Shown in pieces: positions 34,152 to 41,455 of a DNA stretch of 64,000 nucleotides; positions within the stretch are counted from its first letter, which is position 1; each line of letters begins with the position of its first letter. The position numbers were made by a program, and so were the translations under genes. The notes below the pieces were generated by a model, which saw only the letters and a list, made by a program, of their open reading frames with translations, was not told where the DNA came from and ran no database searches. This DNA is from Niallia alba (lineage in GTDB: Bacteria; Bacillota; Bacilli; Bacillales; Cytobacillaceae), in contig NZ_JABBPK010000001.1 of NCBI RefSeq assembly GCF_012933555.1, positions 2,830,001 through 2,894,000 of the forward strand, read 5' to 3'.

Positions 34152-35813
34152 TTACAATGAATACTGAAAAAGTTGATGAATGACTAATAAGGATAAGGCA
34201 ACTAAAATAGATGTTATTAATTGTCTTGAAATAATATTCCTTGCTTGCCTAAACCCTAGTTCCCTCCAAATTGTCGATAATGTAACGATACAGGAAGTGA
34301 GAGTAGAAGCCAGAAAGACTAATATAAATAATTGAAAATTAGATAGTACAGAAAATAAGGCACCATTCCCCTCATTTATTAACAAAATTCCGTCCTTTCT
34401 AATAATAGAAAAAGCCAGTGTTGTTGCCGCATCAGTGGGAAGCTGAAAAAGGGTTAACAATGGATTAAAAATGATAGCTAAATAAGAAATTATATGAAAA
34501 TATTGCAATAAACCTGCGATAATGCAAATAATCAAAAAGATAGGCATTGCTTGTTTTATAAATTGCAATAAATCTACTTTTACTTGATAGATAAAATTCT
34601 TCAAACTCGGTTTTTGAATAAATGCCTTTCGCATGAAGTTATGTTCTTGAATCTTTTGGTTTTTAAACCATAAACGATTGTGTAGAATTCCTCCTAATAA
34701 TAAAAATGAAATATAGGGAAGAAAAAGCCAAGGTGCATGTGCTGTGTTAAATATTGATAATGTTGCTCCAATTTGATAACTACACGCCGATCCAAAGGAA
34801 ATAAACGATATACATTGAGTCCTGCTGCAAGAATGACAGCTCCTGCTCTGAAATACTGCCACTACATTGCATCCAAATCCAGTAATAATCGGAGCTATAT
34901 CCCTCCCTGTTAAACCTATCTTTTCAATGGCTGGTTCAATAGTATCTATAATACGATCCTTTAATCCCGTTTCTTCTGTTAATGCTTTACTACAGCTAAT
35001 CAGTAGGACAACTGGAAACGCCCAAATAAAAGAATACATACCAAGGGATAATAGCCCGTAATCATCTATAAAAATCATTTGCACGATTCTAGGAGTATCA
35101 CTAAATAAAGTCTTTATTTTATCAATGAAATAAGTATCGGCGAGTGGCTGAACAAAGTTTGATATGTTATAAGCTAAAATTACTGGAATAACAAACATTG
35201 CAAATAAGCAAATGAAAGCTATGAATGTTCCCATATATTTTCTTTCAAAGAACAGAGATGGTGGCTCCATATTACTAATTGATAAATTTAGTAACTCCTT
35301 TAATTGAGAAGGCTTAATCGACTCCTCCTCGTTAACACATTCTAACACTAACTCCTTAATATCATTGTTTAAGTGACGAGTGTCGGTAATAAATATTGGT
35401 AACTTCTTCGTTGTGATTTGTTTTAACAGCAATTGTTTTCCATCTGTTGACATTTTATCTGAAAAGGTCACAAAGAGAACTATTTTTTTGGTTGTATTTT
35501 CGATCAATGGATATAATTTTTCTAACTCTTCTATAAAATGTGTACCACGAACTACTATAAAGACTGTTGTTGCTTTTATTATTTCCTCCTTTACTATTCT
35601 TTGCGTAAATGAATCTGTTTGATTAATTCCTGGCATATCTTTTAAATATCCATTTCCATAGGAAGCACTAGCAATATGAACGGTAGAACCTTTTACATTT
35701 GCTTCATCTGTCCTCTTTTTACCTGATAGTTTAGAAAATAAAGTGGTTTTACCAGAAGATTCAAATCCTATAATAACTATATTATTATCATGAATGCTTT
35801 CATTTGCTAGCAT
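34152..35813 (-). CDS. FeoB-like GTPase-permease, candidate Zur-regulated metal importer
   Basis: 553 residues. N-terminal small GTPase domain: P-loop GFESSGKT (16-23), DMPG near 59; the usual NxxD specificity motif is replaced by TFSD near 117. The membrane part starts near 194 and carries FeoB-type gate regions: PIITGFGCNVVAVFQSRSC followed by HSCSRTQCISF, and AFSIIRKDGILLI. The region is unusually rich in Cys. It lacks FeoA and FeoC neighbours. It overlaps the upstream flavoprotein gene by 7 bases; that gene has a Zur box, so zinc rather than iron is the likely cargo (inference). Confidence 0.8.
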   Translation of the reverse strand: MLANESIHDNNIVIIGFESSGKTTLFSKLSGKKRTDEANVKGSTVHIASASYGNGYLKDMPGINQTDSFTQRIVKEEIIKATTVFIVVRGTHFIEELEKLYPLIENTTKKIVLFVTFSDKMSTDGKQLLLKQITTKKLPIFITDTRHLNNDIKELVLECVNEEESIKPSQLKELLNLSISNMEPPSLFFERKYMGTFIAFICLFAMFVIPVILAYNISNFVQPLADTYFIDKIKTLFSDTPRIVQMIFIDDYGLLSLGMYSFIWAFPVVLLISCSKALTEETGLKDRIIDTIEPAIEKIGLTGRDIAPIITGFGCNVVAVFQSRSCHSCSRTQCISFISFGSACSYQIGATLSIFNTAHAPWLFLPYISFLLLGGILHNRLWFKNQKIQEHNFMRKAFIQKPSLKNFIYQVKVDLLQFIKQAMPIFLIICIIAGLLQYFHIISYLAIIFNPLLTLFQLPTDAATTLAFSIIRKDGILLINEGNGALFSVLSNFQLFILVFLASTLTSCIVTLSTIWRELGFRQARNIISRQLITSILVALSLLVIHQLFQYSL

Positions 35814-36910
35814 TCACAATTCACCTCACAACAAGATAAATCATCCAAATACATATTATTCTCTCGATAAATATCAAATACTTCATTTGGATAAGTAATA
35901 TTGCTACGATTTAGAATTTCCTTTGCGACAACTGCAAATCGTTGGCGGAATTTATATATATAACAAAAAATCACATTTTGATGTTTCACATTAGGTCCTA
36001 TTAAAAACAATCCAGGTGTTATAGTTGACTCATCTTTTAGCGTTAATTTAACAATTTTGGAATTATCCCATTCAAATAATTCATGAATCTGTTTCACGCC
36101 AGGTATAAAACCTGTTGCTAGAATAGGTCTTGTTTTTGATACATGGGTTGTCCCATCTGATAAATAGAGTACATAGTCCCCATCCACTATAGATACTTTC
36201 AATACTTCTACATCTTCAAGTATCTCTAATCGATCTGTGTCATCAGCAATTTCTAATCGTTCCTTTGTAAACGGGGATAAGGATATACTTGGGTCAGCTT
36301 TTGGTGACTTCCAAGGGGAAGAATTAGAAATTACCGTCACATTTTTGTTGTTTTGCGTTAAGTGATATGCTGCGTCTATTCCACTCTCATAGCCTCCGAT
36401 AACCGTAAATTCTTCTCCCTGTAAATCTACCCAAGATCGAACATAACTGTTATGAAGACACAATTCAGAACCTTCAAATGGACTTAAATCAGGAGTAGTA
36501 TATTCCCCTGTCGCCCATACTAAATAAGTGGATTCAATTTCTTGCTCTTCTGTATAAATTTGAAATAACCCATCACTTTTTTCTACCTTTTTTACATAAG
36601 CTTTTCTAACTGGTAATTTATAATGACTTACTAACAATTGAAGATATTTAGCATATTCTATTCCTGTTAAATGTTCTTTTCCAAACGTGTATGCTGGAGA
36701 GGTTTCAGGTGCCAGAGCATTCAAATCTAACATTCCAAACCCGTGTCCTGTAAAAGACGGCGTGATTAGTTTCATTTCTTTTGGCCATTTTAGAAAGCTT
36801 GCACCAATGTCTTCTTTTTCTAAAATAATAAAGTCATGGAAGTTTAGCTTTTTTAATAATATTCCTAAGCCAATTCCTGATGGGCCAGCACCTACTATTA
36901 CTAATTTCAT
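35807..36910 (-). CDS. FAD/NAD(P)-dependent oxidoreductase with Cys-rich tail
   Basis: Flavoprotein of 367 residues. FAD-binding motif VIVGAGPSGIGLGILL at the N terminus, GASFLKWP, ATGEY near 133, a second dinucleotide motif FTVIGGYESGIDAAYHL near 170, and ILATGFIPGV near 262, as in YpdA/CzcO-like monooxygenases. The last residues read CCEVNCEC, a possible metal site. A perfect-looking Zur box lies 54 bp upstream. ATG follows AGGAGTG. The function in zinc starvation is not known; it may pair with the FeoB-like permease. Confidence 0.85.
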   Translation of the reverse strand: MKLVIVGAGPSGIGLGILLKKLNFHDFIILEKEDIGASFLKWPKEMKLITPSFTGHGFGMLDLNALAPETSPAYTFGKEHLTGIEYAKYLQLLVSHYKLPVRKAYVKKVEKSDGLFQIYTEEQEIESTYLVWATGEYTTPDLSPFEGSELCLHNSYVRSWVDLQGEEFTVIGGYESGIDAAYHLTQNNKNVTVISNSSPWKSPKADPSISLSPFTKERLEIADDTDRLEILEDVEVLKVSIVDGDYVLYLSDGTTHVSKTRPILATGFIPGVKQIHELFEWDNSKIVKLTLKDESTITPGLFLIGPNVKHQNVIFCYIYKFRQRFAVVAKEILNRSNITYPNEVFDIYRENNMYLDDLSCCEVNCEC

Positions 36911-36963
36911 AAAGATACACTCCTAGTTTCAAAATAATAGGAACATTATTCATTAACGTAACA

Positions 36964-36983
36964 AAACGTAATCATTACGATTT
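36964..36983. promoter_or_regulatory. Zur box upstream of the flavoprotein/FeoB-like operon
   Basis: AAACGTAATCATTACGATTT is a near-perfect palindrome matching the Bacillus Zur core TCGTAATNATTACGA with one change. It lies 54-73 bp upstream of the flavoprotein start. Confidence 0.85.
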
Positions 36984-37043: not shown

Positions 37044-37406
37044 TTAAGAAACAAAAACAAATGTCCATTTCTTATTTTTTCTTTTTTGAAATTTTCTTTC
37101 AGTCTTTGAGTAATTAATCCATCGCATTCGATTAATTCTCGCCATTATCATTAAATCTATTTCTGCTTGAGCTTCATCCATTATTTCTTTAATAGTCGAC
37201 ATAGTGAGGGAAAAATGGTCCGCAGCCTCTTTGAAGGGTGATTTTTCAACCATTAACTCCATAAACTGCTTCTCATTTGCAGCAATCTTTTCTAACTCTG
37301 CTTCTTTACTTTCTATGTATTGATAAATTTCCCGTTTTCTTTCTGGCAAATTTGCAATAGCACTTCGATAAAAAAATGGAACTAAAATAGGATTTACGGA
37401 ATTCAT
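37044..37406 (-). CDS. hypothetical protein in Zur cluster (120 aa)
   Basis: Not recognised. Soluble, highly charged, with FKEAADHFSLTMSTIKEIMDEAQ, which looks like a sigma region-4-type helix-turn-helix, and a basic C terminus (KTERKFQKRKNKKW). The start at 37406 (MNSVNPILVP) is chosen because GGAGGAA lies just upstream. It follows rpsN by 74 bp on the same strand with an attenuator-like hairpin between, so it may share the Zur-controlled transcript. Confidence 0.6.
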   Translation of the reverse strand: MNSVNPILVPFFYRSAIANLPERKREIYQYIESKEAELEKIAANEKQFMELMVEKSPFKEAADHFSLTMSTIKEIMDEAQAEIDLMIMARINRMRWINYSKTERKFQKRKNKKWTFVFVS

Positions 37407-37435
37407 TTTATATTCCTCCAACTTTGATTTAAGAT

Positions 37436-37469
37436 AAAAGCCGTCAAACTTTAATATCTGACGACTTTT
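37436..37469 (-). terminator. hairpin after rpsN, terminator or attenuator
   Basis: AAAAGTCGTCA / TGACGGCTTTT, an 11-pair stem including one G-T pair, around a 12-base loop. The T tract on the minus strand is short (TTTTATC), so partial read-through into the 120-residue gene is likely. Confidence 0.6.
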
Positions 37470-37480
37470 CTTGTCATTAA

Positions 37481-37750
37481 TCACCAACTTGCTTTTTTCA
37501 CTCCTGGAATTTGTCCTTTATGAGCATATTCTCTAAAAGCGATGCGGGACATTTTGAATTTTCTCAAATAGCCTCTTGGTCTGCCAGTCACTTCACATCT
37601 GTTTTTTAAACGGGTTGGTGAAGAATCTCTCGGTAATTTTCTAAGCGCTTCATAGTCCCCTTTTTCTTTGAGCTCTAATCGAAGAACAGCATATTTTTCA
37701 ACCTTTGCTTGACGTTTTTTTTCTTTTATTATTTTTGACTTTTTTGCCAT
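37481..37750 (-). CDS. rpsN: 30S ribosomal protein S14, zinc-independent type
   Basis: 89 residues. [14 protein letters not shown] and [26 protein letters not shown] (given by ends LRKLP and RPRGY) are typical of the long S14 form without the zinc-binding CxxC pairs; only one Cys is present. In Bacillus this form is derepressed by Zur and can replace the zinc-binding S14. Start at 37750 after a GGAGG-type site. Zur box 31 bp upstream. Confidence 0.95.
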
Positions 37751-37780
37751 TTTTCTTTCCTCCAATCCATTCAATCTATT

Positions 37781-37815: not shown

Positions 37816-37965
37816 CTATTTTGTTTCTCGATGTAAAGTACGTTTTTTTAAACGCGGGCAATATTTCATCAACTCAATACGATCTGGGTTATTCCGCTTA
37901 TTTTTTGTTGTAATATAATTTCTATCTCCTGTTTCTGTACATGCTAATGTAATTTTTACTCTCAT
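37816..37965 (-). CDS. rpmG: 50S ribosomal protein L33, zinc-independent type
   Basis: 49 residues, [17 protein letters not shown] to RTLHRETK. Two of the four zinc-ligand Cys of the zinc form are missing: only Cys9 and Cys36 remain, so it should fold without zinc. It follows the ZagA-type GTPase by 38 bp and is preceded by GGAGG seven bases before the ATG at 37965. It fits the zinc-sparing ribosome switch together with the S14 gene. Confidence 0.93.
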
Positions 37966-38003: not shown

Positions 38004-39194
38004 TCAGGAAAATGCAGGTAATGGATCAATAAATTTGGTCCAATCCTTTTTCATTTCCATTTCAGTCAATAAACATGCATTTAAATCTTCTTCCATTCGC
38101 TGTTGATTCATGCCAATTCCAATAAACACTAACTCTGTCATTCGATCTCCGTATAAGGAATCCCAACGTTTTTGTAAATCTGGATCTTCTTCTAAAACTT
38201 CTTTTTGCTCCATTTCTGGATAAGCTGCTATCCACTTCCCTGCACCTTGTATGGTTAAGGAGGGTCCAGCTTGAGAAAGTAGTCCGGCAATATCATTTCT
38301 AGTAGCCAACCAAATAAATCCTTTAGCACGAACAACTTCATCTGGCCAGTTTTCTAGCCAATTCATCAATCTAACTGGGTGAAAAGGTTTATTGCTTCGA
38401 TATACAAAGGAAGAAATTCCATATTCTTCTGTCTCCGGAATATGTTCTTCATTCAGTTCTTTTATCCAGCCTGCACTTTGACTTGCGGCTTCAAAATCAA
38501 ATAACCCAGTATTTAAAACTTGATTTAAGGGAACGCACGAATATTCACTCTCAATGATTTTAGCTTCTGGATTAAATTTTTGTATAACTGCTTTCAATTC
38601 TTGAAGTTTACTTTCTGAAATTAAATCCGTTTTATTCAACACAATCACATTAGCAAATTCAATTTGATCAATTAACAAATCTGCTATTTCTCTTTCATCC
38701 ATTTCATCCACCGCTTGCTTACGGTCTAAAAGACTTTCGCCCGATGAAAAATCATGCCAAAAACGATTGGCATCTACTACAGTAACCATTGTATCTAACT
38801 GACAAAATCGAGATAAGTCAATTCCAACACTCTCATCTACATATGTAAATGTTTGCGCAACGGGAATCGGTTCGCTAATGCCACTAGATTCAATTACGAT
38901 ATAATCAATATTACCTAAACTTGCAAGCTTTTCTACTTCTATTATTAAATCTTCTCTAAGTGTGCAGCAAATGCAACCATTTTGCATTTCCACCAATTTT
39001 TCATCTGTTCTTGAGAAACCACCCTGTTTCACCAATGAAGCATCGATATTTACTTCACTCATATCATTGAGAATCACAGCAACTTTTAAGTTTTCTCTAT
39101 TAGATAAAATATGATTTAATAAAGTAGTTTTGCCTGAACCAAGATAGCCGCTTAAAACGGTAACTGGAATTTTCTTGTTGTTCAATAATTTCAC
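38004..39194 (-). CDS. zagA: Zur-regulated COG0523 GTPase (ZagA/YciC type)
   Basis: Zinc chaperone GTPase made under zinc limitation; B. subtilis ZagA delivers zinc to FolE. 396 residues. P-loop GYLGSGKT (16-23), metal motif CICC (74-77), LNKTDLI specificity loop and a C-terminal CobW domain with [12 protein letters not shown]. Unlike the GTPase at 14135 it has no His stretch. Two Zur boxes lie upstream. Confidence 0.93.
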
Positions 39195-39204
39195 TCCTTT
39201 AAAT

Positions 39205-39225
39205 AAATCGAAATGATTACGATTT
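39205..39225. promoter_or_regulatory. Zur box, proximal, upstream of zagA
   Basis: Core TCGAAATGATTACGA with flanking AAA and TTT; one mismatch to the symmetric Zur consensus. It lies only 11 bp upstream of the zagA start, within the leader. Confidence 0.8.
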
Positions 39226-39296: not shown

Positions 39297-39309
39297 CTAT
39301 TATATAATA

Positions 39310-39329
39310 AAACGAAATGATTACGATTT
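39310..39329. promoter_or_regulatory. Zur box, distal, upstream of zagA
   Basis: AAACGAAATGATTACGATTT. It overlaps the expected -35 region of the TATAAT at 39299-39304, the classical position for repression. Confidence 0.8.
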
Positions 39330-39588: not shown

Positions 39589-41455
39589 AGTGAGTAGACC
39601 GAAGGAACCTCCCCCTCAGTCTCTCTCAGAACCGTACGTGAACCTCTCAGCTCATACGGCTCCCATTATTCATCGCCGGTTGTATTCCATATTTCCAATG
39701 CACAAATAACTTGCGTTCTCGATGTGCAATAGCTCCTAACCAATGTTCCGCTCTTCTTCGATGTTTTCGCTTTTTGTATTTTCGGCGAACCCATTTTACC
39801 AAGCAACTATTAATATATCGCAGTACACTGTACATTTCTGATTTATAGAAATGTCCATAGTAATTAATCCAACCTTGGATTTTCTTATTGAACATGTTGG
39901 AAATATCCTGCAGTGTTTTATCTACTTTGAGCTGTAGTCGCCAACTTCTCACTTCTTTTCTGATTGCTTTCTTTGCCTTGTCGGCAATAGCTGGCAAGAA
40001 GTTTGTAAAGAATTTTCCATATTTATTCTTTGAGTGCCTTGGACGAAATGTGTATCCTAGAAAATCGAAAGAGATAGTCGAATAGTCCCCTTGCCTATCA
40101 TCATCTTTACAATAGACAATTTTCGTTTTCTCCAGGTTCAACTCCAATCCAAACAATTGAAATCTTTCTTCCAGTCTTCGTTGAAGATATTTGGCTTGTT
40201 TCAATGAAGCACAGTGTGCTATTCCATCATCAGCGTATCTTGCCCAAGGAATACTTGGAAATTCTTTTGTCATAAAATCATCAAATGTATAATGAAGAAA
40301 TAGATTCGCAAGAACTGGACTGATGACCCCTCCTTGCGGAGTGCCAGAAGTCCGCTCTGTTAACGTTCCGTCCTCCATTTGAAAAGGTGCAGTTAGCCAT
40401 CTTTGTATATATAAGATGACCCATTCTTGATTTGTATGACGTTTTACCATTTCAATGAGGTAATCATGTCGGATATTATCAAACAGTCCCTTAATATCGA
40501 ACTCTAATACCCAGTCTTTCCTCCAACATCTTTTCCTTGTAGCCTCGATCGCATGAATCGCCGATTTATTTGGTCGATATCCATAAGAATCCTCATAAAA
40601 CAATTTCTCCACTGATGGTTCAAAATATAATTTCGCAACCATCTGTGCCACTCGGTCTTCGACTGTAGGTATACCAAGTGTTCTTGTTCCACCGTTCTTT
40701 TTGGGAATAGCTATTGCTTTTACTGGTTTAGGAAAATAGCTTCCTGAGGACATACGATTCCATAGTTTGTACAGATTATTCTTCAAGTCTAGTTCGAAGC
40801 TCTCAATAGACTGTTCATCAATCCCGTATGCCCCTTTGTTGGCTTTAACTCGCTCAAATGCAGTCATTACTGCATTCTTTGAAATACTAAACGGTTTTGT
40901 TTCTTGCATAGGTTCCTCCTCCTTTCAAAGTTGACCTATCCTTTGAAACTGAATAACTTGGATTCTTCGCTCCGTTTCTATTACAGAAGTTTCATCACTA
41001 CTACAACCCAATCTGCCCCTATGACTGCATCGGTACTCTTTTCTTGTGGGTCTTCCACTTGAAATACTCCCTTAACATCAGCCCGTAGGTTCCCACGTTC
41101 CGTACAAACGCCTGTGTTATGTTCATGCCACCTCTATGCCGCCCACCACTTAGACAGTAAACAGGTTTCCTCTAAGCTCATCCTAGGTTAACGACTACCC
41201 CCTAGTTTTGATGGAATCTCTACGCTTTCGACATTTCCGTAAGTGGTTCACATGTTCATTCATCTCCATAACACGCACTTGACAGTTCTTGACTGCCTTT
41301 TCCTTAACGCTCAATACCATAGCTTTTGACTACAGCACCTTAAGGTAGTTTGAAATCTCCACCTGTATGGCGACTCCGACGGGCCCACCGTCATCATTTG
41401 TACAGCATAGCTGCTTTGAGTAGTCTCGCTACTCACGCACACTTTCGTGGCGCAC
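39589..41455 (-). mobile_element. group II intron (about 1867 nt)
   Basis: The 5' end reads GTGCGCC on the minus strand. The 3' end has the catalytic domain V (GAGCCGTATGAGC, a GAGA-type loop region, then GTACGGTTCTG) and a domain VI-like hairpin ending CTACTCAC(T). One intron-encoded protein lies inside. The junction is ambiguous by one T, but the exon frame is restored either way. The stretch 40910-41455 is intron RNA (domains I-III) without a gene. Confidence 0.88.
39647..40909 (-). CDS. ltrA: group II intron reverse transcriptase/maturase
   Basis: 420 residues. Reverse-transcriptase blocks are clear: KPVKAIAIPKKNGGTRTLGIPT, YGYRPNKSAIHAIE, FDIKGLFDNIRHD, GTPQGGVISPVLANLFLH and the catalytic WARYADDG; the maturase X domain includes GWINYYGHF. 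No HNH endonuclease domain at the C terminus, so it probably relies on another route for second-strand priming. Intact. Confidence 0.94.
   Translation of the reverse strand: MQETKPFSISKNAVMTAFERVKANKGAYGIDEQSIESFELDLKNNLYKLWNRMSSGSYFPKPVKAIAIPKKNGGTRTLGIPTVEDRVAQMVAKLYFEPSVEKLFYEDSYGYRPNKSAIHAIEATRKRCWRKDWVLEFDIKGLFDNIRHDYLIEMVKRHTNQEWVILYIQRWLTAPFQMEDGTLTERTSGTPQGGVISPVLANLFLHYTFDDFMTKEFPSIPWARYADDGIAHCASLKQAKYLQRRLEERFQLFGLELNLEKTKIVYCKDDDRQGDYSTISFDFLGYTFRPRHSKNKYGKFFTNFLPAIADKAKKAIRKEVRSWRLQLKVDKTLQDISNMFNKKIQGWINYYGHFYKSEMYSVLRYINSCLVKWVRRKYKKRKHRRRAEHWLGAIAHRERKLFVHWKYGIQPAMNNGSRMS

Follow-up and report, generated by a model that had tools for sequence, protein, structure and literature searches.

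The window analyzed here is a 64,000-nucleotide stretch of Niallia alba (contig NZ_JABBPK010000001.1, positions 2,830,001 to 2,894,000), in which two overlapping minus-strand genes encode a FeoB-like permease and a flavoprotein. The pair is near certainly linked to the zinc-starvation response, and our favoured reading, to which we assign a probability of about 60%, is a Zur-repressed two-gene zinc-starvation module whose permease would import Zn(II). Zur boxes, the partnership of the two proteins, zinc-sparing clusters and a Cys signature of its own in each protein were all observed, and at the level of the family this signature far exceeds what chance would give. An earlier, sequence-only reading of this locus had proposed a zinc importer in which the flavoprotein reduces or frees the metal. 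A role in the zinc-starvation response is well supported, because homologues recur with Zur boxes and the flavoprotein, lack FeoA and carry operators of two forms. As Zn(II) is redox-inert, a literal reduction of the metal is unlikely; the conserved Cys tail of the flavoprotein is more in keeping with the reduction or handling of thiol ligands.

Zur Operators Upstream of the Pair

The box ahead of the flavoprotein gene, described earlier as near-perfect, deviates at a single position from the Bacillus-type Zur consensus AAATCGTAATNATTACGATTT. When the window was scanned with this 21-nucleotide (nt) consensus at up to three mismatches, exactly three sites were found (the box at 36963 and those at 39205 and 39309), against a mean of 0.01 in shuffled sequence. 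The 21-mer is specific, unlike the 13-nt core, which occurred genome-wide with at most one mismatch at 17 places, compared with 26 for a backwards control pattern; one of its four perfect matches (C1:3344254) falls inside an open reading frame (ORF) resembling an ATP-binding cassette (ABC) transporter. A shorter 15-nt consensus with three mismatches was likewise not specific in the window (six found, 4.56 expected).

Across the family, 111 permease loci were compared (120 before dereplication at 95% identity, duplicate genomes being removed). Of the FeoB-like loci, 80 come from a species-level genome collection in which 323 were confirmed and the best 80 kept; an alignment query gave these 323, and a single-protein query gave no related loci. 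Zur boxes were counted in the 103 loci where the flavoprotein was found and its upstream region measured (81 from Bacilli, 22 from elsewhere). A box with at most two mismatches precedes the flavoprotein gene in 56 of the 81 dereplicated Bacilli promoters (seven perfect, 33 with one mismatch and 16 with two), whereas shuffled promoters gave a mean of 0.15 and a maximum of 2, and random pieces of the same length from the same loci a mean of 3.9 and a maximum of 8. Before dereplication, 41, 61 and 67 of 112 promoters had a box at up to one, two and three mismatches, respectively. Permuted palindromes matched on average 0.017, 0.29 and 3.2 of the same 112 promoters and at most 3, 19 and 52; these high maxima arise because some permutations match AT-rich promoters. 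The 700 nt upstream of canonical feoB genes contained no box at two mismatches or fewer in 20 loci, and one with three. A perfect Zur box lies 50 nt upstream of the flavoprotein gene in a Staphylococcus aureus-type record (L148), which was measured apart.

Outside Bacilli, the Bacillus-type box was found in none of the 22 flavoprotein promoters. Gammaproteobacterial loci were scanned for the gamma-type Zur palindrome, and all five carry it just ahead of the flavoprotein gene (four with two or three mismatches and one with one). Its distance from that gene is 19 nt in Klebsiella, 14-19 nt in Superficieibacter, 18 nt in Tatumella and 70 nt in Stutzerimonas; in Erwinia, where the flavoprotein ORF is in two pieces, it lies about 1.15 kb ahead of where the permease starts, a position that corresponds to the others. 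The Escherichia coli copy of the Klebsiella cluster agrees on this palindrome. That two distinct operator forms occupy one and the same promoter argues strongly for zinc control under selection, in line with the Zur control supposed by the sequence-only reading. According to the accessible text of Haas et al. 2009 (PMC2770081), a cluster on Klebsiella plasmid pLVPK was predicted to be Zur-regulated.

Gene Neighbourhood of the Family

Neighbouring genes were labelled by blastp (E up to 1e-6) against 32 reference proteins and five FeoA proteins from control loci. Within 8 kb of the 111 permeases, the flavoprotein was found at 106 loci, COG0523 proteins at 75, ribosomal protein S14 at 36, FolE2 at 26 (labelled at 21-25% identity in the Bacillota loci with printed identities), ZnuA/B at 18, ribosomal protein L33 at 13, HisI at nine, and DksA and CysS at five each. 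At least one zinc marker is present at 85 of the 111 loci, compared with none of 20 canonical feoB loci (Fisher 3e-11); these controls were 20 of 45 matches and all came from the same order, while the permease set is wider. Adjacency to feoA had been suggested earlier as a check on the zinc assignment, and FeoA was found beside none of the 111 permeases, as against 20 of 20 canonical FeoBs, with the limit that a diverged FeoA could be missed by this labelling. The flavoprotein is near none of the 20 canonical feoB genes. The expected recurrence of homologues with both Zur boxes and the flavoprotein was thus borne out.

The 111 loci span Bacillota, Pseudomonadota, Verrucomicrobiota, Kiritimatiellota, Chloroflexota, Acidobacteriota, Myxococcota, Binatota, a cyanobacterium and the archaeon Haloferax. 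The permease is present in six of 151 genomes of N. alba and its relatives and in 18 of 397 of the order. When the flavoprotein was used as the query in 299 genomes of the class, 20 matches were obtained, and a FeoB-like gene adjoins it in all 17 loci examined (in one of them as two ORFs). In Haloferax, an S14 gene stands between the permease and flavoprotein genes, with genes for a GTP-binding protein, hisI and a metal ABC transporter nearby.

Among plasmid records, 521 match the permease at a coverage of at least 80%, and 499 of the 541 with any match are from Klebsiella. The pair was also observed on IncFIB-IncHI1B plasmids of Klebsiella and E. coli (L044, L045), within a zinc-sparing island. 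On both plasmids it is accompanied by zigA, hisI, dksA, folE2, a second GTP-binding protein that we ourselves label as COG0523-type, and Fur-family repressors; the Klebsiella plasmid additionally carries cysS and carbonic anhydrase. Further gamma-type Zur palindromes occur about 4 kb past the zinc island (L105:16308-16327, L044:16753-16767). The extra palindrome in Klebsiella lies just before ABC-transporter and major facilitator superfamily genes, suggesting another zinc-regulated transporter operon.

Sequence and Model of the Permease

As described in the earlier reading, the permease joins an N-terminal GTPase domain to gate regions. Pfam matches comprise two Gate stretches (PF07670, 65 bits), MMR_HSR1 and FeoB_N, and Gate is matched in 76 of 76 members of the aligned family. 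Against the FeoB model TIGR00437 it scores 75.1 bits, far below the cut-off of 315.65, and all 76 family members match this model (best E 3e-39). The GTPase motifs are G1 GFESSGKT, G3 DMPG and G4 T116-F-S-D119, so that the TFSD noticed earlier in place of NxxD proved to be a family-wide trait: G4 is TxxD in 19 of 19 members, whereas canonical FeoBs have N in 20 of 20, and T116 is kept at 95 of the 111 loci.

The extra Cys cluster reported in the gate segment consists of Cys326 (111/111 loci), Cys329 (106/111) and Cys334 (110/111), to which Cys430 (110/111), unnamed in the earlier reading, can be added. None of these four is present in any of the 20 canonical FeoBs, and His378 (110/111) falls in a stretch absent from FeoB. 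Cys315, Cys344 and Cys508 are common to the permease family and FeoB, as is K473, which belongs to an R472-K473-D474 motif invariant in all 111 permeases. Cys315 and Cys344 lay within the search patterns, so their conservation is partly due to selection of the sequences; Cys326, Cys329, Cys334, Cys430 and Cys508 lay outside them. The AlphaFold2 model (predicted local distance difference test [pLDDT] 91, predicted template-modelling score 0.87) places Cys326 where two short helices (316-325 and 328-340) meet in a turn; the FeoB motifs GFGC315 and GSAC344 sit at the far ends of these helices. The positive charges of R324 and R331 around the Cys triad would suit a cytosolic position.

Fifteen of the 111 permeases are too short for the GTPase domain, and the two that were scanned (L148 and L183) match Gate only. 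The domain was probably lost twice, as two changes are needed on the permease tree, which is a quick tree without bootstrap. Borrowing of an adjacent COG0523 GTPase by the gate-only permeases was considered and rejected: a same-strand neighbour of this kind accompanies six of 15 gate-only and 33 of 96 full-length members, with no clear enrichment, in a count that took ORFs of at least 200 amino acids (aa) and left out the cut COG0523 gene of L148. By the tests applied, the permease represents a conserved family that is not an FeoB but probably works like one, and it differs from FeoB in its context as well, with a Zur box and zinc genes beside it instead of FeoA.

The Flavoprotein and Its Cysteine Tail

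The flavoprotein gene overlaps the permease gene and its product ends in CCEVNCEC, both as stated earlier. The overlap is 7 nt, the last 7 nt of the flavoprotein gene being the permease start, and the likely ribosome-binding site of the permease, GAGGTG, sits within the codons of the Cys tail; the two proteins are therefore probably co-translated. A tail of the form Cx3-5CxC is found in 95 of 106 flavoproteins, that of Haloferax included. In the structural model (pLDDT 93) the tail is of low confidence (last block 54).

The sole close solved relative found by Foldseek is PDB 3D1C of S. aureus Mu50, which matches over the whole length (TM-score 0.91) and is entitled a "flavin-containing putative monooxygenase", a title that gives no function. 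The printed alignment of the L148 flavoprotein with 3D1C runs over the full length and shows no difference. Like the Niallia flavoprotein it has a CCEVxCxC tail; its gene stands behind the perfect Zur box mentioned above and is followed by a FeoB-like gene. Unlike the Niallia permease, this S. aureus partner consists of the gate part only (448 aa, without a GTPase domain match), and a COG0523 gene begins after it.

Several known enzymes were rejected as identities for the flavoprotein. It shares with the bacillithiol disulfide reductase YpdA/Bdr a two-Rossmann fold for flavin adenine dinucleotide and NAD(P)H (TM-score 0.75 to Bdr), but reaches only 80 bits against an NCBIfam cut-off of 339.9, and its Cys tail extends beyond the Bdr-aligned region. 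The Cys of GGGPCG is catalytic in YpdA/Bdr; here it is replaced, the aligned family having a GP[ASV]G-type motif. Thioredoxin reductases carry a CxxC next to the flavin, which is absent, the only invariant or nearly invariant Cys being 316, 361, 365 and 367. An ArsO-type flavin-containing monooxygenase (NF040505) was dismissed at 50 bits against a cut-off of 425.

A second flavoprotein family, NAD_binding_9, is also a recurrent member of these zinc islands (L046:4265-5554, L055:3766-4908, L269:10590-11855), and a distant homologue of it (27% identity) is located on Synechococcus plasmid pAQ7 near hemB and folE. The accessible text of PMC4628125 reports that both a zur mutation and TPEN induced a FAD-dependent oxidoreductase of Synechococcus 7002. 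It was rejected as expression evidence for the pair, as the gene matches the NAD_binding_9 family and not the flavoprotein studied here.

Proposed Mechanism and Alternative Explanations

In the favoured reading, the permease would import Zn(II) across the cytoplasmic membrane along an FeoB-type path (Cys315, Cys344, Cys508) and pass it on to a thiol site absent from FeoB, formed by Cys326-x2-Cys329-x4-Cys334 with Cys430 and His378. The GTPase domain would gate or regulate the flux yet be dispensable, because two lineages appear to have lost it. Three points suggest inward transport: the genes that Zur represses serve uptake and sparing, the permease has retained the FeoB core, and its additional ligands are thiols. 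The part of the NAD(P)H-flavoprotein is less firm: it may act at the cytosolic mouth, where its flexible tail might accept zinc from the permease, or its flavin might keep the thiol ligands reduced, and the zinc would then leave inward to COG0523 chaperones such as ZagA. A handover to the tail, as proposed from the sequences, is possible but rather doubtful. We are similarly tentative about a zinc importer class shared by bacteria and archaea, in which an FeoB-fold permease, in some lineages without its GTPase domain, would release the ion from its pore to the flavoprotein Cys tail, with thiol chemistry making uptake directional.

Several observations weigh against this reading. Among the Bacilli promoters, 25 of 81 have no box at two mismatches or fewer (three or more), and in Achromobacter, the sole betaproteobacterium among the scanned loci, the palindrome is weak (three mismatches) and lies about 220 nt upstream. 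Zinc markers were not found within 8 kb of the permease at 26 of the 111 loci, nor the flavoprotein at five. In an Enterococcus record (L147), a flavoprotein with the Cys tail has no FeoB-like gene in the 1.8 kb downstream. Only three of 13 genomes of the genus carry the pair, which is therefore accessory. The tail is absent from 11 of 106 flavoproteins (eight from Verrucomicrobiota, two from Kiritimatiellota and one shortened Bacillus ORF), and the permeases of those eight Verrucomicrobiota keep the Cys triad, indicating that tail and triad do not strictly co-vary; the gene order is reversed in seven of these eight loci. Among the matches listed, Foldseek returned solved relatives of the permease for the GTPase domain only and none for the membrane domain, and no transport, metal-binding or expression data were found for any family member.

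An unlikely alternative is a Zur-controlled import of Fe(II), Mn(II) or Co(II) by the permease, as a substitute that would feed metal-swapped enzymes in zinc starvation rather than supply zinc. The FeoB Cys residues and Gate domains are kept, replacement enzymes such as FolE2 and carbonic anhydrase are present in the clusters, and Haas et al. 2009, in the text accessible, raise the possibility that paralogues of this type work with other metals. Against this, FeoA is nowhere adjacent, the COG0523 and ZnuA/B neighbours are zinc-handling, and the Niallia genome already possesses a canonical FeoB; this redundancy argument is tempered by the finding that a canonical FeoB above the TIGR00437 cut-off occurs in only three of 20 pair-bearing genomes, never at the locus of the pair. 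The four extra near-invariant Cys would also make a soft, tight site more apt for Zn than for Fe(II). That the permease is an ordinary FeoB lying beside zinc genes by chance is hardly tenable: the Pfam Gate and FeoB_N matches would agree with it, but it is refuted by the score, the missing FeoA, the Cys and G4 differences and the repeated occurrence of zinc genes and Zur boxes across distantly related taxa.

Two other explanations were weighed. The pair might import or process a zinc-bound ligand, such as a thiol or metallophore complex, which the flavoprotein would open or oxidise in the cytosol to free the zinc; its distant likeness to YpdA/Bdr and ArsO-type monooxygenases, the additional ABC-transporter genes of some loci and the recurrence of a different flavoprotein family in zinc islands are in line with this. 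We nevertheless regard it as rather improbable, as ions are the likely cargo of the Gate/FeoB channel, the active-site Cys of YpdA is missing (GPCG to GP[SA]G), and the presence of the pair in an archaeon and many phyla makes a single thiol such as bacillithiol unlikely as the common ligand. Alternatively, the pair may move no metal at all and instead form a thiol-redox system in the membrane, which guards or senses zinc-thiolate sites in zinc starvation; this would account for the conserved Cys tail of the NAD(P)H flavoprotein, for the Cys triad of its membrane partner and for the members without a GTPase domain. Such a system is very improbable in view of the ZnuA/B and COG0523 neighbours and the conserved Gate core, including R472-K473-D474 and the FeoB Cys (with the reservation made above for Cys315 and Cys344).

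Comparison with Reported Zinc Systems

Most of the zinc importers known from bacteria are ABC systems, ZIP proteins or metallophore systems. If the favoured reading is true, a FeoB-type zinc permease would add an importer class that occurs in S. aureus, in Haloferax, in many Bacillota of soil and, with hundreds of records, on Klebsiella plasmids. The substrate implied by some "FeoB" and "nucleoside recognition" annotations would then be wrong, and the orphan crystal structure 3D1C would gain a function. Natural FeoB relatives without the GTPase domain would also offer a test of that domain's role.

The clusters are of the same kind as the Zur-controlled COG0523 and zinc-sparing clusters of Haas et al. 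2009; the words FeoB, permease and flavoprotein were not found in the accessible text of that paper, which thus does not call the pair. The word FeoB was also not found in the available text of two Zur reviews (PMC6103462, PMC8000910), the first of which lists the S. aureus Zur regulon without the pair. In the text available, a 2026 paper on S. aureus ZigA (PMC13339975) deals with three predicted COG0523 proteins and does not mention the operon of the pair, and Grim et al. 2017 (PMC5666155) give AdcABC and CntABCDF as the S. aureus zinc importers. A description of the permease-flavoprotein pair was not found in the accessible part of the open-access literature, and papers elsewhere could exist.

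The Locus and Its Surroundings

On the minus strand the order is zagA, L33, S14, a small ORF, the Zur box, the flavoprotein and the permease (Table 1). The zagA and zinc-independent S14 and L33 genes noted earlier beside the pair agree with the coordinates and Cys counts: with two Cys in L33 and one in S14, both look zinc-independent. The score of the window zagA against the ZigA model is below the family cut-off. The small ORF has no Pfam or NCBIfam match, and its product recurs near S14 in Bacillota zinc clusters.

Table 1. Features of the permease-flavoprotein locus, with positions numbered from the first letter of the window
Feature	Positions	Strand	Remarks
FeoB-like permease	34152..35813	-	553 aa; ORF call and Pfam
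Flavoprotein	35807..36910	-	367 aa; NAD(P)H/FAD Pyr_redox_3 fold, C-terminal tail CCEVNCEC
Zur box AAAACGTAATCATTACGATTT	36963..36983		1 mismatch in 20; core ends 55 nt ahead of flavoprotein start
Small ORF, family unassigned, recurring beside S14	37044..37487	-	
Ribosomal protein S14 (rpsN), Cys-poor form	37481..37774	-	1 Cys
Ribosomal protein L33 (rpmG), Cys-poor form	37816..37965	-	2 Cys
zagA/zigA-like COG0523 GTPase	38004..39194	-	ZigA model 539.5 bits (cut-off 600)
Zur box before zagA	39205..39225		1 mismatch
Second Zur box before zagA	39309..39329		2 mismatches

The Niallia genome (5.24 Mb) encodes a separate canonical FeoB with FeoA elsewhere, so the window permease is not the iron FeoB of this genome. 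A Fur-family regulator of 140 aa, which reaches no NCBIfam cut-off, adjoins a Zur-like box, and further boxes of this type lie ahead of ZnuA-like, ZinT-like and second zagA genes. A promoter scan gave no excess over shuffles (25 found, 25.5 in shuffles).

Other features were observed in passing. The second zagA of the same genome stands with another S14 gene behind a perfect Zur core (L188:4251-6110). Records L147 and L148 are labelled in GenBank as Enterococcus and Staphylococcus phage but contain bacterial genes, probably through host contamination. Directly upstream of zagA in the window, a group II intron reverse transcriptase/maturase is encoded at 39647-40909 (TIGR04416, 415 bits).

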